Below the pieces are notes generated by a model that worked only from the letters and a program-made list of their open reading frames with translations, was not told where the DNA came from and made no database searches. This document shows, one piece after another, positions 2,396-44,214 of a DNA stretch of 64,000 bases; position 1 is the first letter of the stretch, and each line of letters starts with the position of its first letter. The position numbers and the translations under genes were made by a program. Source of the stretch: Nereocystis luetkeana (lineage: Eukaryota > Sar > Phaeophyceae > Laminariales > Laminariaceae); the NCBI GenBank assembly GCA_031213475.1, contig JARUPZ010000019.1, forward strand, positions 4,269,901 to 4,333,900, written 5' to 3'.

Positions 2396-2579
2396 CTACT
2401 TACTGAAAAAAGGGATTTCGTACTAATTCCAAGTAGTTTTGTTTTCTCTGGTGACCTGAGGCGATTTACCTGGTATAATCTCTATTAACCCTTCTAGGAC
2501 TGCACACCCGTTTTCGGAACAAAGCGGTTATATTTTTGAGTAATTAGTTCCCAATTTTTCTTCTTTTTTTTTCTTTCTT

Positions 2580-2770
2580 TTTTTCCAGCTCGTTCTTTTT
2601 CAAGTGTTGGCCACCTCGCCTGCGGGGGGGGGGCACGACAGATTGTTTCTCCTAGATTTTGCTTTCATTTTTTTCTTCTTCTCTTTCGATTTGTCTACCT
2701 TGTTTTCGTTTTCTCTTTGATTGTTTCTTTTCGTTTCACTATTTCATAGATTGCGTATGTCGTGCCTGTC
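2580..2770 (-). repeat. repeat block E, reverse copy
   Basis: Pyrimidine-rich block that is the reverse complement of 12991-13185, including a G-run/C-run next to CACGACAGATTG and the phrase CTTGTTTTCGTTTTCTC. It lies directly beside a D element here and at 13 kb. Confidence 0.75.
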
Positions 2771-2773
2771 GTA

Positions 2774-2985
2774 TGTGTGTTCTTTAAACCGTTCTTTCTA
2801 CCCGTCGACATCCAGCACAACCAGTGTCCGTGCCGATTCTTCAATCCTAGAAGAGATACAAGTTCTGTGGTCACAAAGCTACGCCACAGAGATACTACGT
2901 TGTCACGTGTGCAGTATGCACTGCAGTGGGCAATGCAAAGCAAAGTCATCATATATATCGTGGGGACAAAGCTACGCCACAGAGA
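2774..2985 (+). repeat. family D repeat, forward copy
   Basis: Matches 12808-12990 almost base for base, from the ACCGTTCTTTCTACCCG start. No ORF is conserved between copies. Confidence 0.8.
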
Positions 2986-3004
2986 TACGACGTTGCCACG
3001 TGTG

Positions 3005-4665
<1,661 letters not shown>

Positions 4666-4715
4666 GAAGCTTCACACCTAGGATAGATAAACCATTTACG
4701 AACAGATAGATCATG

Positions 4716-4831
4716 ATCCCGATCATCTGCGGATAGACCATCTACTACTGCTGTGCTTGCTGTGGTCCCTCACCTCCCGATCATCTGCGGATAGACCATC
4801 TACTACTGCTGTGCTTGCTGTGGTCCCTCAC
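4716..4831 (+). repeat. tandem duplication of about 58 bp
   Basis: Two nearly identical units starting CCCGATCATCTGCGG and ending GTCCCTCACC. The GATCATCT wording links them to the GATC-rich tracts at 15.0, 17.9, 18.3 and 60.5 kb. Confidence 0.9.
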
Positions 4832-4844
4832 CCATTCAGAAAGA

Positions 4845-4953
4845 AGTGCAGTCCCGTTTTGGGGGCAAACTCCTTAGTTAGAATTTTGAGTGGATTTATC
4901 CCCTAAACGGGGCTGGCTCCAACAGTCTGCCCTACAAGGGTCGGAATGTGGGC
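4845..4953. mobile_element. family C palindromic element, diverged copy
   Basis: Left arm GCAGTCCCGTTTTGGGG and a worn right arm CTAAACGGGGCTGG...ACAAGGGTC around a short spacer. Confidence 0.65.
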
Positions 4954-5577
4954 ACACCACTCCTCCTCCTGCTAGCAGCAGCTGTATGTACGTACCTGGT
5001 AGCACTTTTTCGGCCACCCCAAAAGGCCATGAATTGAACCAGCCCCCCGTGATGGCCTGCTTACAGGTGTGTAGCGGCCTGCTTACAGGTGTGGGGCATC
5101 AAAAGGGTAAAAAACGCACGTGACACTCCGGCGGTGGCAGGAGTGCACCTTTTTTTGCACGTACATAGCTTTCTCTGCAAGGAGAGCTACTTACTGCTGC
5201 AGTTCTCTCTGTGTGTACCAGGTGAAAAAAACTCAAAAAAAGCTCGTTTTCTCAAGCTTTGTCGCCAAATTATTACAAGTTCGAAAGCGACGAGATCGCT
5301 ACCTCCCAATATATATAGTATATATATTATACAGTATATTAATAGTGTTCGTTTTTGAAGGTTAAACTGCTGAGCTACTCAGCCAGGTTTTACCTTTACA
5401 AGCGAACGAAAGTATGGTGCCTTTCTTTGGGCTCGATGCGGCCTCCCCCACCGATGGGCATCCTCCGGGGTTGATCAAGCCCCCTAATCAGCGCCTGGTT
5501 TTTCCTTCGTATCAGCGCCTGGTTTTTCCTAATCGGCGCCTGTTTTATAGTCGTGCCTTCTTCTGCTCATATATATG
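4954..5577. other. intergenic DNA, no gene seen
   Basis: Contains an exact TACCTGGTA at 4993-5001, a near match TACCAGGTG at about 5214, a short TA-rich stretch near 5310-5340, and a repeated phrase GCGCCTGGTTTTTCCT (5490-5530). Confidence 0.5.
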
Positions 5578-5585
5578 TGAGTGAG

Positions 5586-5832
5586 ATTCACCCTAATTTT
5601 TCTGAGGCTCCTCGCTTAAGGAGCTCCATACCTCGCCCGAAACCTGACTTCAGCAAACTTAAATCCCATCCCAATAATAATAATAATGAAGAATCCCATG
5701 GCCCAAGAACGTCATTTTTGTAATTGATATTATTGGCATTCCGGCGATTTTGGGTGAAGGAACTCTCCTTCACTCAGAAACAAAGCCCCGGAAATGTGCT
5801 AGTAAATACCTCTCTCTATCGTAGAACGCGCC
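5586..5832 (+). repeat. dispersed repeat G, copy 1
   Basis: About 245 bp aligning with 52236-52460 through shared phrases CACCCTAATTTTTC/CGCCCTAATTTTTC, AAGGAGCTCC, AACGTCATTTTT, TATTGGCATTCC and GGAAATGTGCTA. No shared ORF. Confidence 0.75.
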
Positions 5833-5895
5833 GATGTGGTTCACTCCGCTCTCGGCTCTAGACTCCGGTGCGCTGACTGAGAAACCAGCTCAGTG

Positions 5896-5985
5896 GTTAG
5901 AACCGCAGTCCCGTTTTGGGGACATAGCATTCAAACTTCAAGTAGTTTGTCCCCAAAACGGGACTGCGGTTCTAAAAGGGTTAAC
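5896..5985. mobile_element. family C palindromic MITE-like element, best copy
   Basis: Family C is about 90 bp. Its inverted arms read TAGAACCGCAGTCCCGTTTT and GGGACTGCGGTTCTAAAAGG around a spacer near CATTCAAACTTCAAGTA. It carries no ORF. Arms are near perfect here. Confidence 0.85.
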
Positions 5986-6118
5986 CTTTCTTTGTAAACG
6001 AACAAGTAGGGGGCATCGATCGGGCTGCGAATAGAATGAAGAAAAGCACACAGCACACGAAAATAATGGGAAAATTCCCTAACGGATACCAGGTATAGAT
6101 TGAGTATTTCCCGGTTGA

Positions 6119-6570
6119 GGAGCCCCCGTCTACCGCACTGTATACCGCACTGTAGAGGCATGCTACCGCACTACATACCGCACTGTAGAGGCATGCTACC
6201 GCACTGTATACCGTACTGTAGAGGCATGCTACCACACTACATACCGCACTGTAGAGGCATGCTACCGCACTATATACCGCACTCTAGAGGCATGCTACCG
6301 CACTACATACCGCACTGTAGAGGCATGCTACCGCACTACATACCGCACTGTAGAGGCATGCTACCGCACTACATACCGCACTGTAGAGGCATGCCACCGC
6401 ACTATATACCGCACTCTAGAGGCATGCTACCGCACTATATACCGCACTCTAGAGGCATGCTACCGCACTACATACCGCACTGTAGAGGCATGCTACCGCA
6501 CTATATACCGCACTGTAGAGGCATACTACCGCACTACATACCGCACTGTAGACCGCACTGTAGCGGGGTG
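6119..6570 (+). repeat. 33-bp minisatellite, about 13 units
   Basis: Units of 33 bp built from TACCGCACTRYATACCGCAC plus TGTAGAGGCATGC. Because 33 is a multiple of three it stays open in several frames (an 11-residue repeat), which is not evidence of a gene. The same minisatellite occurs inverted at 63397-63770. Confidence 0.95.
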
Positions 6571-6855
6571 GATCTTAAATTGCGAAGCACCCTTCCTTAC
6601 GTGAGAAACCGTCCTTTAGGGGGAAGGGTTTTAGGAGGGTTTTTACTCGATTAGAGTGTACACAGCCCATTTTTATCTCACTGGCAACTCGCCAACCATT
6701 GCAACGGATTGTCGCTGGAATGTATGTGCATGGGAGGGCTATTAATAGATGTGATCCAAAATGAAGAAAAGATAGCTCTCAGAAAAATGGGATTCCAAAA
6801 GCAAAGATATTGGGCACAGACAGCAATTCCTCGGGTTTGGGTTCTTACAGTTGTA

Positions 6856-7100
6856 CGGGGTGCGGGTCGCCCTTCATGCCCTTCATGCCCTTCATGCCTT
6901 TCATGCGACTCGGCGAACACCTCACGGCGCTTGCTCCGCGCTTGGTGCAAGTGAGCGATGCCTGCCTGGTCAGTGAAAACCCGACGACGTGCTCCGTCCC
7001 GGCATTGTTGTAGGGATGCGAGGGTCTATGGTCGGTCGTACGACTACGGCCATGCATGAGATCGAGTACATCTCTCCTATCGAGTACACCCTTTCCCCTC
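6856..7100 (-). repeat. family B element, partial copy with local triplication
   Basis: Family B in reverse; the phrase CTTCATGCC is repeated in tandem near 6873-6905. Ends ATCGAGTACACC then a C/T-rich tract. Confidence 0.85.
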
Positions 7101-7274
7101 CCCCGCCCCCGGCAGTCCGGCAAAAAGCTTTTGAGATCAGAAGTATATACGATTGTGGGCAAGATCCAGTGCCTACGGGGCCCACGGGTGGGAGAAGCGG
7201 GGGAGAGAGAAAGAGAGAAGCCTCCAAAGCCTCTAGCGCGACGGGTGTGTGTATGTGTGAGTGTGCGTGTGTGT

Positions 7275-7440
7275 GTTCTTCGCATTAAAACCGTTCCTTC
7301 TGCCGGTCGACATCCGGCACAGCCAGTGTCCGTGCCGATTCTTCAATCCTGTGTAGAGAGATCCAAGCTCTCTGTGATCACAAAACTACGCCACGGAAGA
7401 GATACTACATTGGCATGCACAGCAGTGAGCAGAGTATAGA
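7275..7440 (+). repeat. family D repeat with short TG tract
   Basis: Diverged D copy preceded by GTGTGTGTGTTCTTCGCATT, the same junction that at 12.8 kb borders a giant microsatellite. Confidence 0.8.
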
Positions 7441-7799
7441 TAATGCAATACCATGACATACATACTGGGTGGAAAGCAGAGGCGAGGGGAAGCAAAAAAA
7501 AAAAAAATGACGCTTCAACCTCAAATAAATACGAGCGATTTGTTTGACACTAAAACGGGGATACAAATTATATATATTTAAATACAATTGTTGTTGTGTA
7601 GGAGTTGTCCGACCGACGTCGAAGAGACCCTTATCCCGTCTCTAGTCTGCCGTGTTTTGTTCCTCCAACGATCAGTCAGTAAAAAAAGTTTGGTCCCGAA
7701 ACGCCCCACCCCTTTGTTCTTCCTCCTTCCTTTCTTTTGTTTTTTCCCTCATCCCGTTTTACTATGTTCGCCCTTCTTTTCCCTGTCTCCCACTCTAGC
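7441..7799. other. unique AT/pyrimidine-rich DNA, no gene seen
   Basis: An A-run and a C/T-rich stretch; no coding-like frame. Confidence 0.5.
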
Positions 7800-7906
7800 T
7801 ATTTGCGGGGGACCACAGTGAATAGGACCAAATACTGTTAGTAAAAATAGTCAAATACATAGGTTTTGTGTACACCGTGGGTCCTATTTACTATGGCCCC
7901 CGTAGT
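7800..7906. mobile_element. family A MITE-like element, copy 4
   Basis: Left end TTTGCGGGGGACCACAG, right end CTATGGCCCCCGTAGTA. Confidence 0.85.
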
Positions 7907-7964
7907 AGTCAAAACTCAGCTCCGGGATCACGTTGTATACAGCACGCTCTTCTCTCCCCCCCCC

Positions 7965-8040
7965 CCCCTTATGGTCATACGACTACGGCCATGCATGAGA
8001 TCGAGTACATCTCTCCTATCGAGTACACCCCCCCCCCCTT
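7965..8040 (-). repeat. family B element, end fragment
   Basis: GGTCATACGACTACGGCC through TATCGAGTACACC, bordered on both sides by C-runs. Confidence 0.8.
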
Positions 8041-8673
8041 CCCTCCTAACCCCCCCTCCCTCAGTCCCTCCCTCTTTCCCTCCCCCCCTCCCTCCCTCCC
8101 TCCCTCCCTCCCTCCCTCCCTCCCTCCCTCCCCGCTACGGCTCGCGCCTTCTTTGCCTTTGCCTTTTAGTTTTCGCGAGAAAACTTCTAAAACACTTTCT
8201 TCCTTCCCGTCGACTCGCATAGAAATTTGCACCCACCAAGCACTACCCTATCTGGCGTGTGTGGATCCAAAATTTCCAAGCACTGATACTGGGATTGAAA
8301 AAACCTGGTTATCATGGTGGGTAGTTGCTCCTCGGCTCGGGGCAGTTTTTTTTTGGTCCTGAAAACACACACGCCCGCTACGTACCACCGTGCGTGCGGT
8401 GCATGAGGCCTCTAAAATAATACCTGGTAGCGAACTACTTCGCACGTCGCTAAGAGCAGAAAATGAGACTGTGAAGCGCTATGATATCGGGTATACGAAT
8501 CGATATGACGGTACGAAAAACAAAAAACGCGCGATGGGCGTGTGCATGTATGTGTCAAGCTGAGTGTCGACTGCGTACGTATCCAGTCGATCGAGATTCG
8601 TAGGTACCAGGCATTACATACAACCTCGTGCATAGTGCATGGGATAAGTTTGTTCCCGTGGTTTTCTTCTTTT
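8041..8673. other. (CCCT)n tract, then unique DNA, no gene seen
   Basis: A CCCT-rich microsatellite at about 8041-8133 is followed by unique sequence with an exact TACCTGGTA at 8421-8429 and a near match at about 8604. Confidence 0.5.
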
Positions 8674-8850
8674 CCGGCGTCCCCGGTGGCTTGGTAGGTG
8701 GTCCGCGAGCTTATCAAGATCAATTTCGTGGGTTCAAGTCCCACCCAATGGGAATGGCATTCCCATTGGTCCCACCGAGTGCATGCTCGTAGGTGCTTTT
8801 TCTTGCACGGCTTGTCCAGAAGGTCGTCGAGGGTAAAACATCCTACGAGT
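8674..8850 (+). repeat. tRNA-derived SINE, copy 1
   Basis: The head holds an A-box-like TGGCTTGGTAGGTGG and a B box GGGTTCAAGTCCC about 50 bp apart, the internal pol III promoter layout. A shared body with CGAGTGCATGCTCGTA and CGGCTTGTCCAGAAG follows. A local inverted repeat (AATGGGAATGGCATTCCCATT) sits between head and body. Confidence 0.65.
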
Positions 8851-10318
8851 TAGACCTATCTATGCCAATGGGACAGCGAAGTTTCAATAAATAGTTTGAA
8901 TTTCAAAGATACCCGCCGAAAAAAATCAGAACACGCTTCCTATGGGCCACATAAAAAAAAAAAAAGTTCCTAACTTTTGGAAAAGCCCGAAAAAAACAAA
9001 TCTGGGGCCGATGTTGGGCCAACATCGGCTTGAAAAAAACTCAGGCCGATCTTTGGTTCGAAGCGGCGAGATTCCAAGTCCTCGGCAGATATCGATCAAC
9101 AAAACCCACGATTGCGTCATGAATTCTGAACGGAGTGCGCTCGTTAGGGGCTCCAACCCACCCTAGGGTCACCGTCTTCACACCATGGCCGGTATCATGT
9201 GGTGGGGGCTGACCAGGCGTATGATACAAAAACATTTGGCCGCTGGTTTGCACAAAACAGAAGACAAAACTTCTCCATCCGTCTCAAATGGCTAAAAATA
9301 GAGTTTTTTTCAGGTTTGGGAGGATACCGTAGGACGCCGCCGGCAAGCTCTCGCCCCCTAGACCATGGATCCACCTGATATCTTCGAGGCCGTTATCTAT
9401 ATTCGTTGGGCTTGCCAGATACCGAGCGGGTTGGCCGTGGGCAGAGTCTATGTCGAGATCGAGCGTCGATCGTCGCAAGAGCAGGTTTCGATCACCGTGT
9501 TGACAATTTGCAAACAGAAAAAACTAATTGCGCCGCCTGCAGCCGTTGGGGGGAAAAAAATAAAAAATAAAAGTTTTTTTCTCAGTTTTTCCCACAGCGG
9601 CGGTACGAGAAAATTCTCGGCTGTTTTTTTTAAAGCAATATATTTGAAAAAAAACTTTTGAACTTCGCGTTTCCATTGGCGGCATAGATAGGTCTAGATT
9701 AGAATGGAAAGTGAAAGTGATGATTAAAAAAAAGGGATGTTTTGAGTGATCAACGTTGAAGCTCATGCTGCATGTTGTCGGACTGCAAGCATCATACCTG
9801 GTAGTTTAATAATATAATTTTTTGTTTCCGAGGTTTTCTTCTTTCGGGAAAGTTGTGAGTGATCAAAGTTGGAGATCGTGCTGCACATTGTCGGATGGCA
9901 AGATAAATAAAAACAATAATAACATGATGATTCAAGTACGTACGTACGTACGTACGTACGTAGCTGATGTATATCTTTGCAAAACATATACCTGGTACCT
10001 GGTACTGTATACGTCCCCGGTGGTGCACAGAGTACAGCAGTGTGTGAAAAAAAAAATCGAAAACACGTTAGCTGTTCTATAGATCGCGAAAATAAACTAC
10101 AGGCGAAGTGGTGGATGCTACTATTAATAGTATAATATGTTGCGATCCCAAATATTAATATTAATAGTGTGGGTGCGGTGCAGATGGCAGCCTTGCGCGA
10201 GGCTGATATATATCCTCGCGTGCCCACGTTTTGGCATTGAACTATAAATGCTCGGAATGTGTATGGGATACGTTTTGCCGATTTTGACGCCTCGTGCGCG
10301 GAGTTGCGTACTATTAAT
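8851..10318. other. unique AT-rich intergenic DNA, no gene seen
   Basis: Holds an 11-bp-arm palindrome at about 9008-9030, an (ACGT)n run at about 9935-9961 and exact TACCTGGTA words at 9795, 9989 and 9996. Frames here are short with AT-rich codons. Confidence 0.5.
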
Positions 10319-10620
10319 GCCGGCGTCCCCGGTGGCTTGGTGGGTGGTCCGCGAGCCTATCAAGATCAATTTCGTGGATTCAAGTCTCACCGAGTGCATG
10401 CTCGTACAGGCTTTTTCTTGCATAAGAAAATTAATTAGCGGAAAGCACGAGAGCGTGAGTTAGCTACATTCGATGAAAATCGACGAGCAGTGGGAATGCT
10501 GAACCCTATGCGGGACAAAATTAAAGGCACGTGCCGGGGGGGAGAAGGGTAGACACCTGTGACCACGGCTTGTCCAGAAGTTTGTTGAGGGTAAAACCTC
10601 CTACGAGTTAAGCTGGAAAG
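10319..10620 (+). repeat. tRNA-derived SINE, copy 2 (longer)
   Basis: Same head as 8674 (GTCCCCGGTGGCTTGG, B box GGATTCAAGTCTC). Between the GAGTGCATGCTCGTA segment and the CGGCTTGTCCAGAAG end it has about 140 bp more body. Part of that body recurs near 17780, 18440 and 21440. Confidence 0.65.
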
Positions 10621-11156
10621 TAAAAGCGATGATTAATATATATGTATATATATAATATACCTGGTATATATTATATATACTATATATTGTATATACTCGT
10701 ATATATATTAAAAAAAAACACACACACACACAAACAGGAGCGATCACGGTCACGCAACAGCCAGCATCACCAATCTATTCCGAGTTAGGCTTTTTCCTTC
10801 CGCTAGGCAGTCGTCATCATCATCGTCACCCGGTTCACGCGCAGGCGGCCGGTTTCCGAGAATAACATTCTGCGGATGCTTTGTTTGATTGCAGGACAGG
10901 ACAGACACCTGTCAGCATTTATTTATAGGAGCTGCGGTCCAGGCTGTATGTATTGTACATCCAACAAAAGCTCACTGCACTGGTTACGGTGTTATTAATA
11001 TTAATAGTATGGTATCATACCTGGTACTCTCCTGATGTTACTATTAAGATCTTATTCCGGTGGGCTATGATACCGCGGTACAAGGTTAACCGATCGCCCA
11101 CCCAATCTAAGTAACAAAAGCTTCGTTACACTATTATCCTCCCCTTCTTGGTCTTC
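10621..11156. other. AT-rich intergenic DNA, no gene seen
   Basis: TA-rich stretch with exact TACCTGGTA at 10658 and 11018, a short CA tract at about 10719-10732, and unique sequence. Confidence 0.5.
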
Positions 11157-11259
11157 GGTTATGCACCCTTTTAGGACCGCAGTCCCGTCTTGGGGACAAA
11201 CTACTTAAAAAATGAGTGGGTTATCCCCAAAACGGGACTGCGGCCCTTACAAAAGGGTC
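11157..11259. mobile_element. family C element
   Basis: Left arm CCCTTTTAGGACCGCAGTCC, right arm ACGGGACTGCGGCCC...AAAAGGGTC. Confidence 0.8.
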
Positions 11260-11340
11260 AGCAATGTCTGAGGACCCACAGGAAGAAGAGTGCGTCATCA
11301 GATTCTTGACACGAACGAGGAAATTCACTTTTCTCGAAAA

Positions 11341-11592
11341 AAAACGTTTTCATGGTGGTGGTGGTGGTGGTGGTGGTAGACGTGAGATTCGAAGTCACGA
11401 CCAACGACCCGCCGTGTCCTCCCGATTGACGCCATATATATGTGAAAAGGTCTTGGTCCGTTGGGCTACTGGTAAAAATATTACCAGTAGCCCAACGGAC
11501 TAAGTTTTCACCAATAGCCCAACGTCTATCGGCGGGACATGGGTCGTCGGTCGTGACTTCGAGTCCCACGTCCACCATGAAAACGTTTTTTA
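11341..11592. repeat. large imperfect palindrome, about 250 bp
   Basis: Outer arms (AAACGTTTTCATGGTGG on the left, CCACCATGAAAACGTTTT on the right) enclose inner arms with a perfect 20-bp stem over a 5-base loop at about 11458-11502. The arms carry a tRNA-like GACTTCGAGTCCC, so it may be two tRNA-derived elements in inverted orientation. Confidence 0.8.
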
Positions 11593-11668
11593 GATAAAGA
11601 AAGGGTAAGTTTCCTCATGTCAAGAACCTGATAAGAGACTGCTCCTGGGTTCCCAGCAGAGATTGTTA

Positions 11669-11759
11669 ACCCCTTTTAGACCCCGCAGTCCCGTTTCGGG
11701 GACTTAGAATTTGACTGGTTTGTGCCCAAAACGGGACTGCGGTACTAAAAGGTCTAAAA
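11669..11759. mobile_element. family C element
   Basis: Arms CCGCAGTCCCGTTTCGGGG and AAAACGGGACTGCGG; the spacer is shortened. Confidence 0.8.
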
Positions 11760-11985: not shown

Positions 11986-11988
11986 TGT

Positions 11989-13571: not shown

Positions 13572-13609
<38 letters not shown>

Positions 13610-15832: not shown

Positions 15833-15833
15833 T

Positions 15834-17386: not shown

Positions 17387-17486
17387 NNNNNNNNNNNNNN
17401 NNNNNNNNNNNNNNNNNNNNNNNNNNNNNNNNNNNNNNNNNNNNNNNNNNNNNNNNNNNNNNNNNNNNNNNNNNNNNNNNNNNNNN
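17387..17486. other. assembly gap, exactly 100 N
   Basis: A fixed-length scaffold gap; the true missing length is unknown. It sits against an (AAAC)n tract, a plausible cause of the break. Confidence 0.99.
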
Positions 17487-19444: not shown

Positions 19445-19566
19445 TATTACGGGGGACCATAGTTAATAGACCTATGGTATACTTAAAAACCTACCTGGTA
19501 TATATTTAACCATTTTTACCAACAATATTTGGTCCTACCAGGTATTAACTATGGTCCCCCGTAATA
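19445..19566. mobile_element. family A element, copy 8, with two micro-insertions
   Basis: Against the clean copy at 57437-57545 it has two extra 7-bp blocks: CCTGGTA after a TA at 19492-19500, and its complement-type CCAGGTA at 19536-19544. Remove them and the copies align without gaps at those places. Confidence 0.9.
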
Positions 19567-19574: not shown

Positions 19575-19597
19575 TACCTGGTACCTGGTACCTGGTA
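19575..19597 (+). repeat. TA(CCTGGTA)3 array
   Basis: Three overlapping TACCTGGTA words at 7-bp spacing, just outside family A copy 8. Confidence 0.95.
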
Positions 19598-19750: not shown

Positions 19751-19766
19751 TACCTGGTACCTGGTA
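19751..19766 (+). repeat. TA(CCTGGTA)2 array
   Basis: Same flank as 19575-19597 but two units instead of three. Confidence 0.95.
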
Positions 19767-23879: not shown

Positions 23880-24062
23880 TCTCTTTCTCATGTTGATTGC
23901 ATTTACAACAGAGTATCTCTGTGCTGTATATACCTGGTATACATAAACATAGCTTTCGTGACCGCAGGGCCTGCACCCCTCTAGGATGGCGAAACAGCAC
24001 GGACGGACGCTCGGTGGGCTGGATGTCGACGGGCAGAAACAACGGTCTGATGTGAAGAACAC
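23880..24062 (-). repeat. family D repeat, diverged, with an inserted TACCTGGTA block
   Basis: GGATGTCGACGGGCAGAAAC and CATAGCTTTCGTGACC match D in reverse. Relative to 3060-3100 it has about 23 extra bases centred on TATACCTGGTATA (23931-23939). Confidence 0.7.
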
Positions 24063-27510: not shown

Positions 27511-28794
27511 GCGCTTCTGCGACTGTCGTTGTTGCTGTGCGAAAGGACGCGAGTGTACGCGCGCGCGACGGGGAGAGGGAGGTTGAGGATATGCCGCCTG
27601 TGTCCTCTGGAAGAAAACTGCACGTTTGTATCAAGTGCCTCTCTCACAACAGCAGTTTATTTTTCTGTTTTGTGCTTTCCCGCCTGCTCCCGCAACCGAT
27701 GCTCGTGAACGACTGGAAGCGTTGAGGTTGTCCCCGCGCGCGCACCCACATGTGTACAGAGGGGAACGAGTATTCGTGCCGGATGCGGCCGCCATGTTTT
27801 ACTGCGGTAGCCGTAGAGGTACGCCACCCGTACCTCTGTTAGAATTGTCCAGGTCCACGGGCGGTGGATACATACAGCACATGTGCCGAAGAGCCCGTGT
27901 GTCACGATAAAAAAAATGATTCCTCAAAGGGAGATATATCCCATGCTGTGAATGGCACCGGTGTTTCGTGACAGTGATGTCCGCACGTTTTGGCAGGCTT
28001 GTCCTACCCGCACCTCAGGAACGGTACGTCAGGCTATACGTGCACGGAGGTCTTGTTTCCGACCCATGGCACGATACCGACACCGCCTTCTGATAATTTT
28101 CCTGAAGGCCTCGTTCAGACGATCCCTCCAACCAGAACAACGTGATAGCGCCTCTTCCAACTCGTTACGAGAAAACAAGCCGGCCTAGAGAAAACATACC
28201 ATCAAGCTTCTCACGTCAGTACCTACTGCTTGACCACCATGCGCCAACTCCGGCGGCATTTCAGCACGACCACAGATGGCCGCGAAACTTACACGAATAA
28301 AACAAAAACAAAAAACACCATCACCACGTCACCCTTGCCCCCCCCAGCTCTGGTAAAGGCTACATACCAGGTACGTCAGACCGATCATTGCATCGCTTCC
28401 CACTTCGTGGTCTAGATTTTTCGGGGCCCAGATTTATCCCTGATCTGAAAAATCTATTCGTTCATCTTTCCGGGTGAGAGTCGCGTAACCTGCGCGGTCC
28501 TAGGGGCATACGTTTCCTGCGTTGAATACGCACTATACGACTCTTGCGCAACACAGTATCTCAACGCCAGCTTAGGCTTCATTATATCCATCCCTGTGGA
28601 CGGATATATTAGGCTCTGGGTAGATATATTAGGATCGCTTCGTCTTCATGTTAACCTTGAAACGCTTCTAATGTTTCCGTTCAGAGTGGTAGATCGTGAA
28701 TGTCCAACGTCTGCAAGTATGTAACGAAATTCTATCATATTGTAAGACCCCCGCCAGCCCCCCCGAAGACATGAACACCCCCCCTCCCGTGGAT
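27511..28794. other. unique DNA, no gene seen
   Basis: Exact TACCAGGTA at 28365-28373. The short frames here lack consistent codon bias. Confidence 0.45.
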
Positions 28795-29504: not shown

Positions 29505-31004
29505 GCGCAAAGAGCGAGCGTATACAGGCTACCACTGTAGATCCACCCGGCTACGCGAGACCGTATCAGAATTTCCACGGAACCTGATGAATCGCGAGTC
29601 GTCTGAAAACAGTTCGACTACAACAGCGCGCGTTTAAACCGAGCTTCGCTGAGCCAGGCCGCCGACAACTGAGCAACCCGGCACCAAACACGAGATGTGT
29701 TCTATACCTGGTATACTGCTGCAAAATGTCGCTTCGAGGACTCGGCGATAAAAGCTTTCTTCAGCAGCACCTTCAGCTCGCCTGTGGAGCAGTAGAACCT
29801 ATCACAGCAGCGCCAGGATTGTTCCATGAATCACACTGTTGCTTCACGCTGCTATGTAGACCGACGAGGAGCGCAAGCTATACGACTCGTCGATTTTGGC
29901 AAACGGAATCTTCAATTCAAAATCGATCCTACCAGGTACCAGGTACCAGGGTAAAAAGTTGTGCGTAGAACAACAACTGCTACAATCCCCCTTCCTAATG
30001 TGTTTTTTTTCGAGCCAGTAAGCAAGCGAGCAACCAACCCAACTCTGGCTGAAACCCTAACTCCTCCTGGTGGTACATAGAGCTGTTATGGAGGCCAAGT
30101 TATCTAAGTACAGCAGCTCAGGCAGCAGGGTGTCCATTGTCCAGAGGAGGTCCAGAATCGCTGATCGCGCCGCATATCCGCATGACGGACTGTCATATTT
30201 GGCCAATCAGAAGTGGCCAAGATCCACAGCCATCAAGTTCAGTAGTAGGACCGCGGTTTGACTCCTTGACTGACAGGCTCATGCTCACTAAAGCCAGCAT
30301 AATAAGGCCTACAGAGGTCTTGACGTGCCCAGAGATTCCTAGGATCTTTGACAGCAACTGCTGCTACACCAGCAGCAGGATCATGTCATGCGCCACAGCC
30401 GTACAGCGTGCAGCGCACAGCGCACAGCACACAGCACACAGCGACACGTGCAGCCCCAACGAAAAAGGCGTACTCGATGGGCGTACGAGTACGAGTACGA
30501 GTACGAGGTAAGAGTCAAATTCATGTTCGATCGAAGATCGGACTACAAAATAAATGTTGGCAACAAAACAAATGACCTCTCACAAAATTCGCGAGGGAAG
30601 CCCAGTCTGTCGTCGACAGCAGCAGCTGTTTCATGAAAAAAAACAGCCAGAACGTAATCATCGAAGAGAGTTTTTTGTAACCGCGGACTACACAATACAT
30701 ACACAACAGGTGTTTTCACTCGAGGTGCCTGGAGAAGCAGTAGACGAGACCTAACAGAGAGAGATTCCGGCTACGAGTACAAGGTCAAGAACAGGCTTTC
30801 CTCGTGTCCACTTAACATATCCCAGGTATATATATGGGCACCACATCACTTTTATTGCCTTCCAGCTCAACCCGTAGCGGAGTGCGTACGTACCACAGGT
30901 TTATCATCCTCACCGGCCTTCTGGCAACAACAACAAAAAAGTGGCTGGAGATGTCGCCCCTTTTCTCTCCCCCCCCCCGCCCCCTTTTTTATACCTGGTA
31001 TATA
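29505..31004. other. unique DNA with micro-insertions, no gene seen
   Basis: Exact TACCTGGTA or TACCAGGTA at 29705, 29930, 29937 and 30992. A short AGCACACAGCACACAGCG run lies near 30410-30445 and a GTACGA run near 30485-30505. Confidence 0.5.
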
Positions 31005-33054: not shown

Positions 33055-33170
33055 TATTCCGGGGGGCCATAGCAATCAGAACCCATCATATACACAAAAA
33101 TCTACTGGTATATATTCCAGTCATTTTGCTAGACCTATTGGAGTCCTGATTACTATGTTCCCCCGAAATA
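33055..33170. mobile_element. family A element, copy 12, with a micro-insertion
   Basis: Diverged ends TATTCCGGGGGGCCATAG and TATGTTCCCCCGAAATA. A 6-bp gain gives TACTGGTA at 33103-33110. It lies about 190 bp beyond the stop codon of the PX-GOLD gene. Confidence 0.75.
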
Positions 33171-36600: not shown

Positions 36601-39600
36601 TGGAAAATTACGGCATGTTTGTTAGCGGTGATCGGTTGGTTGATTGGGTGGTTGTTTCGGTTGGTCGGTTGGTTTGGTTTGGTTGGTCGGCTGGTTGGCC
36701 GGTTTATTCGCTGGTTGGTTGGTGGGTTGGTTGGTTGGCCGTGATGAGACGGGGGGGGCGGATGACGAATGAGGGGGGTTGATTTTTCGCCGCGCGGTTT
36801 TCGACAAATATACCGGGATGTCTGAAAGTGTGTGATTCAAGCGGTGTCCTTCGTGTAGTGGTTGGGCGGAACGCTGAGAACAGCGACAAAAATGAACCAC
36901 CAACGTGTAAGGTACGACCGTCGAGGTAGCTTCTTAGCGCAAAAACCACGGGGGCGCTTGAGAACACAATCTATGCGTGACTTGGGTCAAGCCAAGAGAG
37001 AGGGACGTTATCTCCGCTTGACTCTCACGAGATCAGGTTCAAGCCTCACGGTCTAGGTAAGGAAAATGCGGGCACTCTCGTATGCCTCGGGATGCCTCGA
37101 CTGCTATGTCGGCCCCAGTTCATGCTGTTGACGTTCTGCTACCGTCGGCAGCAGTGCATCATGCTCGGCCTGTGTTTTTTTTTTTTGAATTCCATCATCG
37201 CCAGTGGTTCGGGTCACGAGGGTCAACTATATCAGCCAGCGTCGCGCACACAAGTACGACAGCGCATACCCTGCAGCAACCATCGCCACAACCGACAGCG
37301 CCGCCGCAAAGCGCCGCGTCTGCGGCCTTTCCCTCCCTGCCCGGAAACAGCATCAAACCAGACCAAAAACCAAAACCAAACCAAACCAAACCAAACCAAA
37401 CCAACCCAAACCAGCCCGGGACCAACTCGCGTGTGCGATGTCTTGTCTGAACACTATTACGGGGGACCATAGTTAATAGGACCTATGGTATACATAAAAA
37501 CCTATATATTTGACCATTTTTACTAACAATATTTGGTCCTATTAACTATGGTCCCCCGTAATAAACCGCTCTTGCTACCCACCGACAGTTCCGCACAACG
37601 ACGGGACAACCAACCAACCCCCAACCCCTGCACGGCATGTCTAATACCGGTGCTGCTACGCTACGTATGCGCAGCGTGTGCGTCTGTTGCGTGCTGTGTT
37701 TCGCTGCGTGTTGCTGCCCTCTGCCCCCCGCCATCCCACCTTCGCCAGCTCCTCCTGGATGCCGCTGCGGGCGACCTGCCAAACGCTCCGCTCGGCCTGC
37801 AAGAGGTCGTACTCCCGTCTCACGCGAAGGAGCTGCTCCTCCGACGTCTGGAGTCTGGCCCCCGCCGCCGCCCCCGCCGCCGCGGCCTCGTCTCTCGAGG
37901 TCTCGACCTCGGCCAGATCCCGACGCGAAGAAGCGAGACCTTCTCGCGTCTCCTCCAAGCTACGTTCCAGCCTTCGCAACCAGACAGGAAACGCACACAA
38001 AAATATGCCCAACTTAAACGGGACGAGAAACGCGTTTTTCGTAGGTGCAAAACTTCTCCTCCTAACAATCTTACTACTTGGTGGTGGGGGACGGGGGGTG
38101 TACCTGGTGGTGGTGGTGGTGGGTGGGTGGGTGGGGGTTGGCGTAACGCTATTACGGGGGACCATAGTAAATAGGACCTAACATTGTTAGCAAAAATAGG
38201 GACATACAAGGCGCTTCGCTCCGCGGGCGGCCTACGCCGCCCGCTACGCTCGCTCAGGAAGGAAAAAAGTACATCAAATTATGCGAAGCGAACAGAGGCC
38301 CACGATTGAGTTTAGTGTTTTCAAGGATCGTAATTGCAAACCGGCGACTTGATAATGCCAAGAGTCCCGCCGCACTGCTTCAGGAAAAAACAGCTCCGAC
38401 GTCAGCTTGGATGCCACATATACGCTTCGCGTCGCAGATGTCGTACGTACGTACATACCCCAGGTAGGGTACTACTGTCTGTTATACTTATTTTCTTCTT
38501 TCGATATGCTCTATGTCTGTACTGTATGTACGAAGAAAGCGAAAGCACAGCACGGTACAGCAGCAAAAACAATAAAAATGAAACCGAAAACTCGGAAAGG
38601 AAAAAAATCCCCGTCCCCTCTCGTGTAATATTTTTCTGCCTGATTGGAACACCTTACAGCCGCAACCCGGTCGAAAAGAAGAAGCTCCGCGGGCGGCCTA
38701 CGCCGCCCGCTACGCTCGCTCAGGAAGGAAAAAAGTACATCAAATTATGCGAAGCGAACAGAGGTCCACGATTAAGTTTAGTGTTTTCAAGGATCGTAAT
38801 TGCAAACCGGCGACTTGATAATGCCAAGAGTCCCGCCGCCATGCTTCAGGAAAAAACAGCTCCGACGTCAGCTTGGATGCCACATATACGCTTCGCGTCG
38901 CGGATGTCGTACGTACGTACATACACCCCAGGTAGGGTACTACTGTCTGTACTTATTTTCTTCTTTCGATATGCTCTACCTGGTATGTCTGTACTGTATG
39001 TACGAAGAAAGCGAAAGCACAGCACGGTGCAGCAGCAAAAACAATGAAAATGAAACCGAAAACTCGGAAAGGAAAAAAAATCCCCGTCCCCTCTCGTGTA
39101 ATATTTTTCTGCCTGGTTGGAACACCTTACACCCGGTCGAAAAGAAGAAAAGAAACAAATCGCACAGAAGAGCTTCTCTCTCAGCCTCGTACGCCGCCCG
39201 CCCCTCTCGCGACCACCTCGCTACCGATTCGGTCCGGGTAAAGCTTTTATCACTCTCTGCCACAATCAGCCCCGTCGCCCGCCCCGCGTGAAGCCCGGTG
39301 CTCACCGTGGCCGTCGTTCGCCAGCTCGATAACGTTGGTGTTCGAACTGCACACCTCCCTCTTTCAACTTCAGCGTGGTCGCAAAAATAAGCACCGCTTG
39401 AATATTATCTTGCCATCCCGAACGACCTTTATAAACTCGTACATACTCTATCAACAATCATAAATCGAAGCCAGACAAAGCCCGTTTATTCACCCCTCGT
39501 GTCTCGAGGCACACGCGACGCCTAGGCACGAAAGCGGCGACCGCGCTCCTTGCAACCCCCCCTCTACCCGCCAGCACCCGCTGGCACCCGCGACGGTTCC

Positions 39601-42600
39601 GGGTCCTCCCGCGATGCCGTGCTCGGAGAACACGCACGCACACGAAACGAAAGAAGAAAAAAGGAAGAAATGACCGAGAAAACAAAGAACTGCTGGAAAG
39701 GTCCGGCAAGTAATGAAAGGAGGCGGTTTGGAAGTGGGAGCTCTGAGAGGCCAGGGATGCACCAACCGAGCACGCTCAGGGGTTGTGATCTAAGTATGTA
39801 GTTCTATGTACGTTTTCGTTTATACCGTAGGTCCTATTTACTATGGCCCCCCGTAATACCGTGTTCACTTCGAAGTCACGTCATTCACGCAAAGGGACCT
39901 TCGGCGGCAGGGGGGGATTTTGTTTTACGGTAGAACAACAAATCTGAGCGACTGTTGTCGGTCGGCCTTGCCAAGGAAAAAAAAAAACGCGCGCGAAGAG
40001 AAAGTCAACTGGTCGGTGGCAAAACACTACAACGCTCGCGCGGGTACTGAGGGTCGGACAAACGCAGCGTGTTGACTTCGTGCGACCGAACCACTCTTCC
40101 GAGGGAACGTACTACAGTAATCAGAACCCCACGATGTACCCGAAAACCAGGCATCCCCCTATATGTGTACATGTTTTTACACTATATTTGGTTCCGATTT
40201 CTACTCTCCCCCGTAGTAATGCTGTGCCGAGGTTTTCCGGAGGAGTACAGGCTACGGCGAACCGGTCCCAGAACGAGCGCGACATCCTGGAGTCACGAGG
40301 CTGGGCTGGGCAGCACCGGCTGCGTAGCTCCGGAACAATAATCTAGCGGGGGGGCCATCACAACGTCCATCATCAAAAGGTCCATCGATCGTGCTGCCTC
40401 CCAACGAGGAGCCTGCATCGGACCGAACGCCCCTTCACCCACCCGCCCAACACCCACAGCTCCCGCGTGCACCACCCTAAATCTCGAGAAAAGGCCCCAC
40501 CGCCCCCCCACCCCCCCCCCCCGCGCCCGCCCGCCCGCTCACCTGTCTGCCTTGGTGTTCGCTCTTTGAAGAGTGGCGAGCAGCACCTTGGCCTGCGCCT
40601 CGCTCTGAGCCCGCCGAGCAGATACCGACGCTACCTCGTCCTCCAGAATCTCGAACCGTGCCACTAGCTCCTCGACCCCCTTCGCGTCTACGTTTCCGTG
40701 GCTGCCGCTGCGCACGGCGCCACCACCCCCACTACCCCCACCCCCACCCCGCCCACCACCACCACCACCACCAAAGGAGGGTGTTCCCCAGCCGGCTGTT
40801 CTGGTATCGCCGCCACCGCCGCCGCTGCCGCCGTTCTCGATGCCACCGTTCCCACCGCCACTCCCGCCAGCGCTTTGTCCCGCGTCAACGATGGTGCCGA
40901 GGTCTCGGAGCAAAGCCGCCGCCACGCGCCGAACGCGACCGAACCTGTAGTGACTACTGTAGTAGATTGTGGTTGAGTCGGCGTCGCCCAATCCTCCTAA
41001 TTCTCCCCCCCCTCTTCCTCCTCCTACTTCGTCGCCGCCGCTGCCGCCGCTATTGTTTCCCGCGTTACCTCCACTTCCTCCTTCGCCGCCGCCGAGCTCA
41101 CCATCGGCGGTAGCCGCGCCAACTGCCGTGACGGTAATCCTGACCTCGCCGTGCCCGCTGTCCAGGATCCTCTGCGCCACGGCGCTGCGGCTGGCACGCT
41201 TCTTGTGGTCCAAAGCACCCGCCGCCTCTATCGCCGCCCGCATCGTCTGGACGGTAGCCGACTCGACCACAAAGCAAAGCCGCTTCCCGCGCAACCGGCT
41301 GTAGGCGTTGTCCCAGCGCAAGATGCATCTGCGTCGAGGAAGGAGGGGGGGAGAGAGGGGGGGAGGGAGAGAGGGAGGGAGGGTGTCGGGGAGGGGGGGG
41401 GGGGGAGGGCGAGGCGGCAATTCCGTCGGAGGGCCACCACGACCGAACGGTGACCGGGGGGACAAACTTGTTAGGATTCAGGTGGCGGGATTTTGACGCT
41501 TTCCCGCATGAGGGGAAAGCACCGCCCCGTAACGTACGATACTATACAATACAATTCCATACCGTATCGTACGGTACCATACCATACCGTACCATACTAT
41601 ACCATACCGTATCATGCAGTGCCGTACTGTGTATTCTGTCGTACTGTCAAGTGTGGTACTCAACGCTACACACCTTGAAGTACCCCAACAACTAGTCCCT
41701 ATACCTTCAAAACAAGTCTGGAGTAGACAGCCCGGGAAAACCTGGGGTTCTACGCGTTCAGTCGATATTTAGCACTAACACACGACGGGCGAGAGGGGTT
41801 CGTTACTCCATGGACGCCCCCCACTCGCACTTCCCGTCGACAGGTCGCGTCACTCACGTCCCGTCCGCCGGGCAGGTGAAGCTCCCCTGCACGAGATCGC
41901 CTCCTACGGTAGAGTATCTCGTCGGCAGGTGCACGGCTCGGTCTTTCGGTGGCCCCTGCCCCCGCCCTCCCCCGTCCCGTTCAGTCCCCCTTCCACCCCC
42001 TTCGGCGCTCGCTTGTGTGTCGCCGTGGCTTCCTCCGTCCCCGCCTTCTCCATCGCCGCTGCCCCTACCCCACCACCCGGACCTTCGCGGGGGCCTTTCC
42101 CCCGCCGCAGATGCTCTCCCGGCGTCGGTGTTACCTCCGTCGCTCGCACGGTTAACAGGAAGCGTGTCCCCCTCTTCACCCCTGGGTCCCGGGCTCGACA
42201 AACGCCCCTCCGTTCCAGCCGATGCGTCTGCTGCTACGGCCGCTGCCGCCGCCGCCGCCGCCGCTGCCGCCGCCCCTTGGTCGGGGGAGAGAATCGGCAG
42301 CGGGTGCGGCTTAAACAGGACAGAGAAGTCGACGTCCAGGCTGTCCATCACCTCGAACTTCCACACCACGCTCTCGCCGTGGAGCACGTCGATGCGCTCG
42401 GTGTGCTCCGCCCGGCGCGGCACGTACACCTTCCTGCTTTCGAAAGGCTGCAGCAGAAAGTCGACCGCCGTCTCGGGGCTCCTCGGCGCCCCTTCTCCGC
42501 CGTATCCGCTGCTGCCACCGCTGCCGCCGCCGCCGCCGCCCCCCTTCTTCTCCTCTCCCTCCTCGCACTCCTTGTCAGAGTGGCGGCGGCTGTGTTCTTC

Positions 42601-44214
42601 CATAAACCCACTGAAAACCTGGCTTTGCACGACCGCCGGCACAGCTAGCAAAGCCTTGAGGTATGCATCGAGCGCTCGAGCGATGTCGGCGCTATCACCG
42701 CCGCCACCACTGCCACCGCCGCCGTCGCCGCCGCCTGTGGTCCCGGCGGGGCCCGCCGGCAGCGCGGGAAGCTTCTCCTTGACGGCCTCGTTGCAGCCGA
42801 ACTCGTCGGTGAGGAGGAGGTAGTGCAATCGCTGAAACTCGGACCACGGCTTGCGTAGGGATGACCCGGAAACTGCGGCGCGCGGGCCCTCGCCGCATTC
42901 GAGGGTGATGTCGATGTTGAACCAAGGCTCCTGCAAGGCGCCGACCGTCGCGAATGCGGACCGTACACGGCAGACAGCAGCAGTAGTAGATGTTATGAGA
43001 CAAAGTATGACATATTCATACGGTCATGGTGGTGGCGGTGGCGAAGGGATACACAGTACGTACGTGCGTCCCGCTGTATATCAGGTACGTACCGGTATAT
43101 TACTGGCCAGCCGGTGGGATCTTAGTGAAGGGTGCGCGGGCCCCGAGAGACGAAAACAGCACACAGCCCGGGGTCCCCCCGTGTCTGGAAACAGCGGGTA
43201 GACCGGCATCTGGGGTAGGGGTCAATCGTGGGTTCATTTGCCGTACGAGGGCGTACGACTACACGAGTCTACACGTATGTACTGCCTTTGATCTACGAAC
43301 CTACTTTTAAATACTAATACCTACTGTTGCGCGACTATTAATACCGTAGATTGAAGTTGGTGTGATGAGAGCATGATGCTGTCTCACTATTTTCAAGTAT
43401 AAAGAAAGAGCGGGACGTCGTAGTAATAGAATACACGACGCAGCGTGGCTCCAAGCACTATTATTAATAGCGCTTACCTACTATGCTGTACCTGGCACAC
43501 CGGCACCTGGTACGGCGGTACCTGGTACAGCAAGGTCTGATCGGACCCATGACCGGCTGGCTCGTGGTGAGTGTGTCAGTATTTTACAGGTACGTTGCAA
43601 ATCAATGCTCGTACCAAAGGTCCGAACATCAACTTGGCAAAATTGATTCTCAGCTTCTGGGGCTTTCTCGTGTTGCCTGAAAAGTGGGAACCTATTCGTA
43701 GGGTTGCGATGACGATGGTATGTGGTGGACGATCAGTGCACATAAAGGATTCGCGTGCTACTTGCCTGGCGTTTTCCTAGGACTCTACTGCTGTAGAGCT
43801 GTGTACGCACATCAACCAGGTGCTGTTCGCGACCTCGTTGGAAGTTGGAGTGTAGAATCAGCAGAAAAATACGCGAACGGGTACCCCCCAAGCTCCAAAA
43901 GCAAGTTTCAACCACGACCATTGTTTCCTTGCAAGTCAACACGAGCTGACAACCCTCCACGTTTTCACGAACAGCTATGAAGGCCGCCAACTAGTACTAG
44001 CTCTGTTGCTGCTGTACTGCTGTACCTCCAATGAATCGTCGTAGAGGTCGGTGCTGGAGTAGAACTCATTGGCGTCCATCTCTTTAACCATCTCCTTCAC
44101 CAGCTCGGATAGGTTCGACGAAGTCGACTGCTGCTTCTCCTTCATATTCGCCACTTGTCCGTCTCCTGGCTGACTGTCGGTCTTCTGCACTGTGCTGGAA
44201 CCTTCCATTGGCAT
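33363..44214 (-). CDS. PX-GOLD-coiled-coil protein, 7 exons, complete
   Basis: Seven minus-strand exons join in phase to a 1149-residue frame: 44214-44026, 42930-41858, 41328-40543, 37971-37740, 36595-35783, 34111-34017 and 33624-33363. Residues 64-175 resemble a PX phosphoinositide-binding domain (LRKPWSEFQRLHYLLL, then ALDAYLKALLAVP), with LRKPWSEF where the usual RRYSEF lies. Residues 214-272 and 421-445 form a GOLD domain (VVWKFEVMDSLDVDFSVLF; ILRWDNAYSRLRGKRLCF) interrupted by an Ala/Gly-rich insert and an intron. About 640-890 is a long coiled coil. The C-terminus is Ser/Pro/Gln-rich. By analogy with known PX and GOLD proteins it is likely a peripheral endomembrane adaptor; that is inference. 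The gene is divergent from APC1 across 420 bp. The start is ATG 44214 or the ATG two codons later. The exon 5 donor is the least certain junction. Confidence 0.75.
33690..33765 (-). repeat. LINE 3'-tail fragment in PX-GOLD intron 6
   Basis: A G-tract then GCGTACTCATCTGTTGCTTG and CATTTGACCATTGACCACGC, the reverse of the LINE tail at 57.8 kb. A short GA tract follows. Confidence 0.7.
34017..34111 (-). CDS. PX-GOLD gene exon 6
   Basis: 95 nt between acceptor TTTCTCGGCCAG and donor TCAAG|GTATGT; reads AALKQLSRQLVHLRERQHHL, amphipathic and in phase on both sides. Confidence 0.65.
34609..34716. mobile_element. family A element, copy 13, in PX-GOLD intron 5
   Basis: CTACGGGGGACCATAGTAAA left; TATGGCACCCCGTAA right. 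Confidence 0.9.
35439..35562 (+). repeat. tandem duplication of about 62 bp in PX-GOLD intron 5
   Basis: Two units containing GTTTCGCCTAGGGTGTCTCT and CAGCGGATCCGATCCGAC. Upstream (35230-35390) is a looser repetition of AGAAGTAACGACTT. Confidence 0.9.
35783..36595 (-). CDS. PX-GOLD gene exon 5 (coiled coil, Gly/Ser linker)
   Basis: Acceptor TTTCCAAACAG. Arg/Glu/Ala-rich coiled coil (RALAKSHESRAHAEAEAARL) followed by a Gly/Ser-rich linker. The chosen donor AAAAAG|GTGGTG is weak; an earlier donor inside the linker is possible. Confidence 0.6.
37455..37562. mobile_element. family A element, copy 14, in PX-GOLD intron 4
   Basis: Almost identical to copies at 57437 and 19633. TATTACGGGGGACCATAG and TGGTCCCCCGTAATA ends with TA on both sides. 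AAACC and GGTT microsatellites lie at 37365-37420 and 36635-36740 in the same intron. Confidence 0.93.
37740..37971 (-). CDS. PX-GOLD gene exon 4 (coiled coil)
   Basis: Acceptor TCTGGTTGCGAAG; 77 codons of heptad-like sequence (RLERSLEETREGLASSRRD, RREYDLLQAERSVWQVA). Donor GCGAAG|GTGGGA. Confidence 0.75.
38150..38205. mobile_element. family A element, copy 15, left half
   Basis: TATTACGGGGGACCATAGTA through GTTAGCAAAAATAGG, then broken. The matching right half is at 39795-39858. Confidence 0.85.
38218..38688 (+). repeat. direct repeat of about 470 bp, unit 1
   Basis: Begins GCTCCGCGGGCGGCCTACGC (a GC-rich hairpin) and ends GGTCGAAAAGAAGAA. It lacks the CCTGGTA gain seen in unit 2. Confidence 0.95.
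38689..39160 (+). repeat. direct repeat of about 470 bp, unit 2
   Basis: Roughly 97 percent identical to unit 1 by eye. The clearest difference is GCTCTATGTCTG in unit 1 against GCTCTACCTGGTATGTCTG here (TACCTGGTA at 38977-38985). Confidence 0.95.
39795..39858. mobile_element. family A element, copy 15, right half
   Basis: TATACCGTAGGTCCTATTTA to GGCCCCCCGTAATA. Separated from its left half by about 1.6 kb that includes the duplicated 470-bp units. Confidence 0.85.
40109..40219. mobile_element. family A element, copy 16, strongly diverged
   Basis: The right part (TATATTTGGTTCCGATTTC, CCCCCGTAGTA) and the left AGTAATCAGAACCCC resemble copy 12. The left GGGGGACC block is lost. Confidence 0.55.
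40543..41328 (-). CDS. PX-GOLD gene exon 3 (end of GOLD, start of coiled coil)
   Basis: Acceptor after a C/T tract (CCTCGACGCAG). It restores the GOLD strand CILRWDNAYS exactly in phase. Two Gly/Ser-rich linkers precede the heptad-like VEELVARFEILEDEVASV. Donor GACAG|GTGAGC opens directly into a G-run. Confidence 0.8.
41526..41640 (+). repeat. degenerate CCATACCGTA repeat in PX-GOLD intron 2
   Basis: Iterated CATACCGTA/GTACCATAC words, self-complementary in places (CGTACGGTACC). Confidence 0.8.
41858..42930 (-). CDS. PX-GOLD gene exon 2 (PX and first part of GOLD)
   Basis: Acceptor CGCCTTGCAG|GAG; donor GGGAC|GTGAGT in phase 2. It carries the PX-like domain, Gly-rich linkers coded by GGC triplets, the first GOLD strands, and a low-complexity Ala/Gly segment. 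Confidence 0.8.
44026..44214 (-). CDS. PX-GOLD gene exon 1 (residues 1-63)
   Basis: Starts with two close Met codons (MPMEGSS), is Ser/Glu-rich, and ends in DDSLE with donor GGAG|GTACAG in phase 0. The preceding TTG of the same frame is not a likely start. Confidence 0.6.

Follow-up and report, generated by a model that had tools for sequence, protein, structure and literature searches.

Excision footprints of TA-target transposons are a known kind of genomic scar, and passages documenting them are found in several papers (PMC7827188, PMC7913693, PMC1925063, PMC4561436, PMC3660474). Sleeping Beauty is described as producing 3-nt overhangs, which are joined by non-homologous end joining and whose letters remain as the footprint (PMC7827188). 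Stowaway footprints are given as 2-4 plus 1-2 bp, that is 3-6 letters in all, with several footprints per site, and re-insertion beside an old footprint has also been described for these elements (PMC1925063). A footprint range of 2-4 bp, together with a palindromic, AT-rich target preference of ZB, is reported elsewhere (PMC7913693). Such passages treat excision scars singly, by locus or by assay. The present analysis concerns the nine-letter word TACCWGGTA (W being A or T) in 64,000 nt of the brown alga Nereocystis luetkeana (contig JARUPZ010000019.1, positions 4,269,901 to 4,333,900; the whole of this stretch is termed the window) and in the remainder of its genome. These words are quite probably the excision footprints of a TA-targeting cut-and-paste transposon with ends 5'-CCAGG(G).

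The likeness to Tc1/mariner and Stowaway elements (Sleeping Beauty, mariner, Osmar) lies in a duplicated TA and in the few, putatively terminal, nucleotides left between two TAs. The differences are a near-uniform five-letter scar, some 182,000 intact copies without a donor having been found, and a target consensus that includes positions -6/-7 and +7/+8, such that the scar resembles its own target. In Ectocarpus, a brown-algal relative of the host, Tc1/mariner elements comprise 17 families and 11,912 copies, mostly short and non-autonomous, and the word 'footprint' does not occur in the main text of that report (PMC12477816). Fanzor-carrying elements of the Ectocarpus virus EsV-1 share both the TA duplications and the brown-algal setting, although no link to TACCWGGTA was found in the source (PMC3627910). 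Searches of open-licence papers returned no report of TACCWGGTA as a footprint, no match to longer scar words and nothing on five-letter footprints or palindromic-target footprints. The bare 9-mer is present in 109 papers, and the 20 among the matches listed look unrelated. In the open-licence literature searched, no counterpart was found to the scale of the phenomenon, to its uniform scar and self-recreating target or to the absence of a donor.

Abundance of TACCWGGTA and evidence for insertion

The window contains 24 exact words in 19 clusters (19 TACCTGGTA and five TACCAGGTA when read on the forward strand), against an expectation of 0.40-0.48 under Markov models of orders 0-3. Expectations at orders 4 to 7 climb from 0.8 to 22, but these are raised because such orders are fitted to the word itself. 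Simulation of the 59,626 masked bases of the window (60 runs per order) gave means of 0.38, 0.38 and 0.87 at orders 1, 3 and 4, with a maximum of 4, and the low-order expectations and simulations together place the excess at about 55-fold. A preliminary description had counted 23 words, an excess of about 45-fold over some 0.5 expected, and roughly ten near matches. The exact word is present at all 23 places, a further one lies at 6087, and the near matches TACCTGGCA and CACCTGGTA (= TACCAGGTG) occur six times each, so that both the excess and the near matches are borne out. Few non-repetitive 9-mers of the window are as over-represented as TACCWGGTA, and 24 of the 153 CCTGG pentamers on both strands have TA on either side. 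In the genome assembly (465,085,209 bases, 1,987 contigs), the word occurs 182,395 times (91,155 + 91,240), or once per 2.55 kb, compared with 1,744 occurrences (883 + 861) of the word written backwards; hence the density in the window is ordinary for the source genome. Likewise, 25 arbitrary 10-kb stretches held 90 words and no control words. Clustering of the words within the window is weak (p 0.05 to 0.32).

Each TACCWGGTA word is an insertion, in which TA has become TA-CCWGG-TA. The clearest case is a 466-bp tandem duplication at 38218-39149, one copy of which reads GATATGCTC-TA-TGTCTG and the other GATATGCTC-TACCTGGTA-TGTCTG; the best empty paralogue of this filled site, at 38977, is 96.5% identical over 114 bp and lies in a sampled locus (L007). 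A second case is provided by a family of miniature inverted-repeat transposable elements (MITEs) with TTACGGGGGACCATAGT ends and TA flanks, of which at least 18 copies, mostly of about 109 bp, lie between 457 and 63119, with relatives in at least eight sampled loci. When 18 copies are aligned, the copy at 19445 carries TACCTGGTA and TACCAGGTA at places where its sister copies have TA, and at the first of these places two other copies carry TACCAGGGTA (60911) and TACTGGTA (33103). The sites and related features of the window, with footprint meant in the putative sense, are as follows.

2467..2475, forward strand: TACCTGGTA, single footprint, exact word
4993..5001, forward strand: TACCTGGTA, single footprint, exact word
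6087..6095, reverse strand: TACCTGGTA, exact word, absent from the earlier list
8421..8429, forward strand: TACCTGGTA, single footprint, exact word
9795..9803, forward strand: TACCTGGTA, single footprint, exact word
9989..10004, forward strand: (TACCTGG)2TA, two tandem units, exact words
10658..10666, forward strand: TACCTGGTA within a (TA)n palindrome; TA-only paralogues, but low-complexity AT sequence
11018..11026, forward strand: TACCTGGTA, single footprint, exact word
19445..19566, forward strand: MITE copy with TTACGGGGGACC ends and two footprints (18-copy alignment)
19492-19500, forward strand: TACCTGGTA in the MITE copy at 19445, 20 clean empty matches
19536-19544, forward strand: TACCAGGTA in the MITE copy at 19445, 23 clean empty matches
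19575..19597, forward strand: (TACCTGG)3TA, three tandem units, 3 vs 2 units against the local duplicate
19751..19766, forward strand: two tandem units, exact words, local duplicate of the 19575 array
23931..23939, forward strand: TACCTGGTA, single footprint, exact word
28365..28373, reverse strand: TACCTGGTA, exact word
29705..29713, forward strand: TACCTGGTA, single footprint, exact word
29930..29953, reverse strand: two exact units and one six-letter unit; the forward strand reads TACCAGG TACCAGG TACCAGGG TA
30992..31000, forward strand: TACCTGGTA at the edge of a repeat copy, exact word
33103..33110, forward strand: four-letter variant TACTGGTA (= TACCAGTA), MITE copy that has diverged, site equivalent to the TA of 19492
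38421..38603, forward strand: first-copy part of the tandem duplication, with the empty site (paralogue comparison)
38977..38985, forward strand: TACCTGGTA in the second copy of the 466-bp tandem duplication, plain TA in the first
43519..43527, forward strand: TACCTGGTA in a minisatellite of 15-bp period (43490-43529), exact word
59850..59856, forward strand: TACAGTA, three-letter TA-duplicating insertion (paralogue comparison)
60911..60920, reverse strand: six-letter variant TACCAGGGTA, MITE copy distinct from that at 19445, site equivalent to the TA of 19492

The word at 30992 is absent from the paralogues at 59378, 59941 and 67 (minus strand), the left flanks of which align poorly, and that at 43519 could be a chance word of the short minisatellite. 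Of 134 clusters examined in a directed search, 13 have a clean paralogue with TA only. Among the 13, L008_1997 and L009_132 belong to copies of a single repeat and L010_1501 and L010_2105 occupy one position, so that neither pair is independent; three more lie in low-complexity AT sequence (L019_1828, L019_1844, W_10658), leaving about 8-9 firm independent insertion events. Locus L010 has three tandem paralogues, with 0, 1 and 2 units at the corresponding position. Among 426 indels listed blind from paralogues in 29 sequences, 48 duplicate TA; the word seen most often, eight times, is TACCAGGTA. TA duplication at insertion, a feature of Tc1/mariner-type footprints, is thus seen in the paralogues themselves, and because the empty copies carry plain TA, the inserted unit is CCWGG plus one TA; the preliminary description was right to call the word bounded by TA. 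Its statement that the sites sit in unrelated flanks holds in general, the exceptions being 19492 and 19536, which share one MITE copy, and 19751, which is the local duplicate of 19575. Nor do the words belong to one dispersed repeat or one larger repeat family: flanks within the window are unrelated, and 93 arrays share only a weak target consensus. Neither outcome that the preliminary description had named as refuting it, a lack of genome-wide excess or a single larger repeat family, was observed. A functional motif, such as a protein-binding site kept or spread by selection, would account for one exact word at a density of 1 per 2.55 kb, but is made very improbable by the exact boundaries with TA duplication, the empty paralogues and the insertions within MITE copies and other repeats, as well as by mixed-orientation tandems and a palindromic flank preference outside the word (see below).

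In 314 kb, 114 exact and 146 one-mismatch words were counted, and since the same count for three control words gave 45, 51 and 63, many scars are old. Decayed copies of this sort, and words shared between duplicated copies (19575 and 19751; the L008/L009 repeat), make an assembly or library artefact, in favour of which nothing was found, extremely unlikely. The two scars in the MITE copy at 19445, the tip branch of which is 0.009, are probably young, because that copy is close to its sister copies.

Target consensus, length variants and tandem units

The target consensus was derived, with the insertion removed, from 93 arrays in 264 kb (one of them a mixed tandem), and a held-out set of 34 arrays was taken from unused loci, including eight picked for carrying a tandem array. 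The consensus is palindromic around TA. Among the 93 arrays, A is found at -6 in 48% and T at +7 in 52% (background 25% for each), while A or T is found at -7 in 77% and at +8 in 83% (background 53%), with p from 1.5e-6 to 2.8e-9 for these four outer positions. Weaker signals lie at -3 to -1 and +2 to +4. Among the control positions, -5 and -10 are not enriched; enrichment is borderline at +6 (p 0.054) and mild at -8 (p 0.018). All four outer signals were replicated in the held-out arrays (p 0.018 to 5.6e-5), and of the inner signals only that at -1; a palindromic preference around TA, as in Tc1/mariner-type elements, is therefore present here, with outer positions replicated and inner positions mostly not. 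Hidden neighbouring units are not the cause of the consensus, because neither C at -5/-4 nor G at -2/-1 is enriched in the 93 arrays. The consensus is absent from CAG/CTG (96), CCG (68) and TTAA (128) words.

The main inserted form has five letters, and shorter and longer forms accompany it. Within the 264 kb, the six-letter CCAGGG occurs 10 times and CCTGGG not at all; genome-wide, TACCWGGGTA occurs 13,000 times against 771 for its control, and is A-centred in 93 of the 100 matches listed; these 100 all come from the initial 5.9 Mb of a single contig, and an apparent tandem array accounts for seven of them. This array (G000:C1:1305185-1308353) has TACCAGGGTA every 528 bp, seven times, and appears to carry one scar. 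The four-letter CCAG occurs 29 times and CCTG 11 times, with 18 and 3 for the respective backwards controls. CCAG words (n=29) have all four outer features of the consensus (p 0.011 to 1.4e-4); CCAGGG words (n=10) have A at -6 in eight cases (p 4.6e-4), and the other three features lean the same way without significance. Counts of CCATGG (4 vs 0) and CCGG (22 vs 12) are compatible with joined pieces of both ends. The series of four, five and six letters reads as prefixes of a putative transposon end, 5'-CCAGGG.

These variants bear on the proposal, made in the preliminary description, of a very short element bounded by TA. Its non-random, genome-wide and TA-bounded nature stands, but a 7-bp unit that itself transposes is the less likely form of it. 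Such a self-mobile unit would agree with the TA boundaries, the very high copy number and the tandem units; a 7-bp sequence is, however, too short to hold transposase binding sites, and the four- and six-letter forms with a similar target consensus are better suited to excision scars of a larger element, so that a mobile 7-mer is to be regarded as highly unlikely.

Tandem units are informative on whether scars are hit again. Genome-wide, adjacent pairs of units number 9,539 in the same orientation, 4,522 A-then-T and 1,856 T-then-A, and the mixed pairs thus make up 6,378 of 15,917, or 40%, against the 50% expected of independent events. With blind re-insertion, 1,336 pairs would be expected, and with a rough target-preference model 9,824, although the weights of the latter were drawn from the same data and are over-fitted. 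Re-hitting is to be expected, since the two TAs that bound a scar lie exactly 7 bp apart, and each thereby supplies the outer consensus of the other. The bias of the target towards A at -3 and T at +4 accounts for the direction in which A-then-T pairs are in excess. Microsatellite expansion or slippage was considered as the origin of the tandems, because those of the window are all in one orientation; taken by themselves these are misleading, and the mixed pairs of the genome leave to slippage only about 20%. That excess of same-orientation pairs, and the difference of three vs two units between the local duplicates at 19575 and 19751, speak for some slippage, but single units form 86 of the 93 arrays and 6,378 of the 15,917 adjacent pairs are mixed. 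As the main cause, slippage is largely refuted, and the whole class of word is most improbably its product.

Proposed excision mechanism and the search for a donor

In the proposed mechanism, the element would have ends 5'-TA|CCAGG(G)... and its transposase would make the cuts in the non-transferred strand some 5 nt in from the two termini. This would leave a pair of CCAGG 3' overhangs able to anneal with a single central A:A mismatch, and repair of that mismatch to A:T or T:A would yield CCAGG or CCTGG, which are reverse complements. A 5-nt offset with CCAGG ends would explain why the scar is odd in length, nearly palindromic and free to have A or T at its centre. Alternatively, as in Stowaway-type scars made from pieces of both ends, 2-3 nt of each end (CCA, TGG) may be kept, with trimming when they are joined. 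Because each TA at the edge of a scar has another TA 7 bp away, it would match the target consensus and so be hit again, giving rise to tandem arrays, and the element would leave far more often than it stays, so that scars outnumber copies. That TA-scar elements are active in this genome is supported by a TACAGTA insertion and by 28 matches to the DDE_1 transposase domain, of which several have long open frames. TA is the target of those DDE_1 elements that belong to the pogo/Tigger/Fot1 type. No link between any DDE_1 match and a scar has been observed. Two of the matches, at G000:C34:4445281-4448513, have equal scores and lie in opposite orientation 2.4 kb apart.

TACAGTA is itself enriched (97 vs 36 backwards in 264 kb). 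It was considered as a product of the same process as CCWGG and rejected; since its flanks lack the CCWGG target consensus, it is treated as another element. The insertion at 59850-59856 probably derives from such another TA-target element, and resembles the classic three-letter Tc1/mariner footprint.

Several observations weigh against an excision origin. About 288 kb, made up of the window and 28 loci no longer than 10 kb, was searched for inverted repeats; this search, which detects only elements with both, similar ends in one locus, returned one match, a chance pairing of two scars, and no donor. TACCNGG/CCNGGTA pairs at most 400 bp apart were sought in 358 kb, and none stood. DDE_3 domains gave no match among 30 candidates scored, and five of the 28 DDE_1 loci (L039-L043) had no CCAGG-ended inverted repeats within about 5 kb. 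The five-letter length exceeds the 2-4 bp described in PMC7913693, although it falls within the 3-6 letters given for Stowaway (PMC1925063). The four-letter CCAG is only weakly above its backwards control (29 vs 18), with 4 vs 4 in the held-out loci. Mismatches are more frequent at three of the four TA-edge positions than in the core, a pattern that plain decay does not predict. Same-orientation pairs exceed the 6,378 expected by 3,161, about 20% of all pairs, a surplus left to slippage or duplication. T at -2, A at +3 and the feature at +2 failed to replicate in the held-out arrays, CCSGG sites (n=12) lack the target consensus, and single features of it appear in control words (T at +7 in CGAG, p 0.031; A at -6 in TGG, p 2.8e-4).

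Candidate donors were found and rejected. A 184-bp stretch with TACCGGGCTTTCAG ends (L037:3602-3785) was first taken for a CCGGG-ended relative, and was rejected because its inverted repeat extends outward beyond the TA and its ends occur only 311 times genome-wide. It belongs to a family of long inverted repeats with TACCGGGCTTTCAG, seen also at L029:325 and 2015 and at L038:361, and TACCNGGCTTTCAG has 311 matches in the genome. A 37-bp CCAGG...CCTGG piece in L041 stands alone. Within the window there are 42 pairs of near-CCWGG ends; the 25 of these that were listed trace to the GGGGGACC MITE and to a single inverted repeat, at 2799-3163.

From the lack of any donor in 288 kb, the number of short donor copies genome-wide may be put at under about 5,000, a bound that misses long elements and those with dissimilar ends; on this basis there are probably more than about 35 intact scars for every short copy. 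The missing donor is the main gap, and is either the most interesting property of the system or the weak point of the model. A non-transposon enzyme has accordingly to be weighed, by which a two-base staggered break at TA would be repaired with addition of a fixed, templated, near-palindromic pentamer. Some 182,000 words with no donor in the stretches examined would suit such an enzyme, and the palindromic consensus would also fit a dimeric endonuclease. It requires, however, a fixed template of unexplained source, and the occurrence of CCAGGG but not CCTGGG resembles a longer piece of a transposon end; we know of no process that inserts a fixed pentamer at TA, and this alternative is considered unlikely. 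There is about an even chance that the words record a ghost transposon, that is an extremely restless TA-target element or a new type of TA-target recombinase, which has stayed at low copy number or gone extinct and has left about 0.3 million scars (an estimate from the 182,395 intact words plus decayed ones), these scars recreating the target and being hit again as its own footprints.

Other features of the window and significance of the putative scars

Other repeats of the window include a perfect (AC)725 repeat of 1,450 bp at 3178-4627, beside two inverted 184-bp arms (2771-2954 and 3008-3191, 95%), and a 33-bp minisatellite (TACCGCACTGTAGAGGCATG...) at 6130-6552 and 63406-63766, near both window ends and in opposite orientation. 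A gap of 100 N bases lies at 17387-17486. An APC1 gene is present (Pfam ANAPC1 match, E 1.9e-11), for which 21 related proteins were returned, the best at 94% identity and two from Ectocarpus at 67%. No TACCWGGTA site lies within the APC1 open frames (44587-50257), and the last 20.5 kb of the window (43528-64000) contains no exact word, where about four are expected given the number of TAs and the APC1 frames (p 0.006). An Rfam search returned no matches. Two word patterns matched none of the viral contigs; a 16-mer matched five of them and was taken as chance, no copies beyond the seeded pair being found in the stretches examined.

One type of scar present about 182,000 times in 465 Mb could serve as a genome-wide counter of past excisions. 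Target choice, the outcome of end joining (four, five or six letters, A or T centre) and re-hitting would all become measurable on very many natural events, and insertions of 7 bp, which shift the reading frame, also look like a major and uncounted origin of small indels. A donor, if found, would put to the test the idea that the scars of a transposon can greatly outnumber its copies. If the words are indeed the traces of a ghost transposon, scar counts would record the jumping of an element over its lifetime rather than the copies of it that survive.

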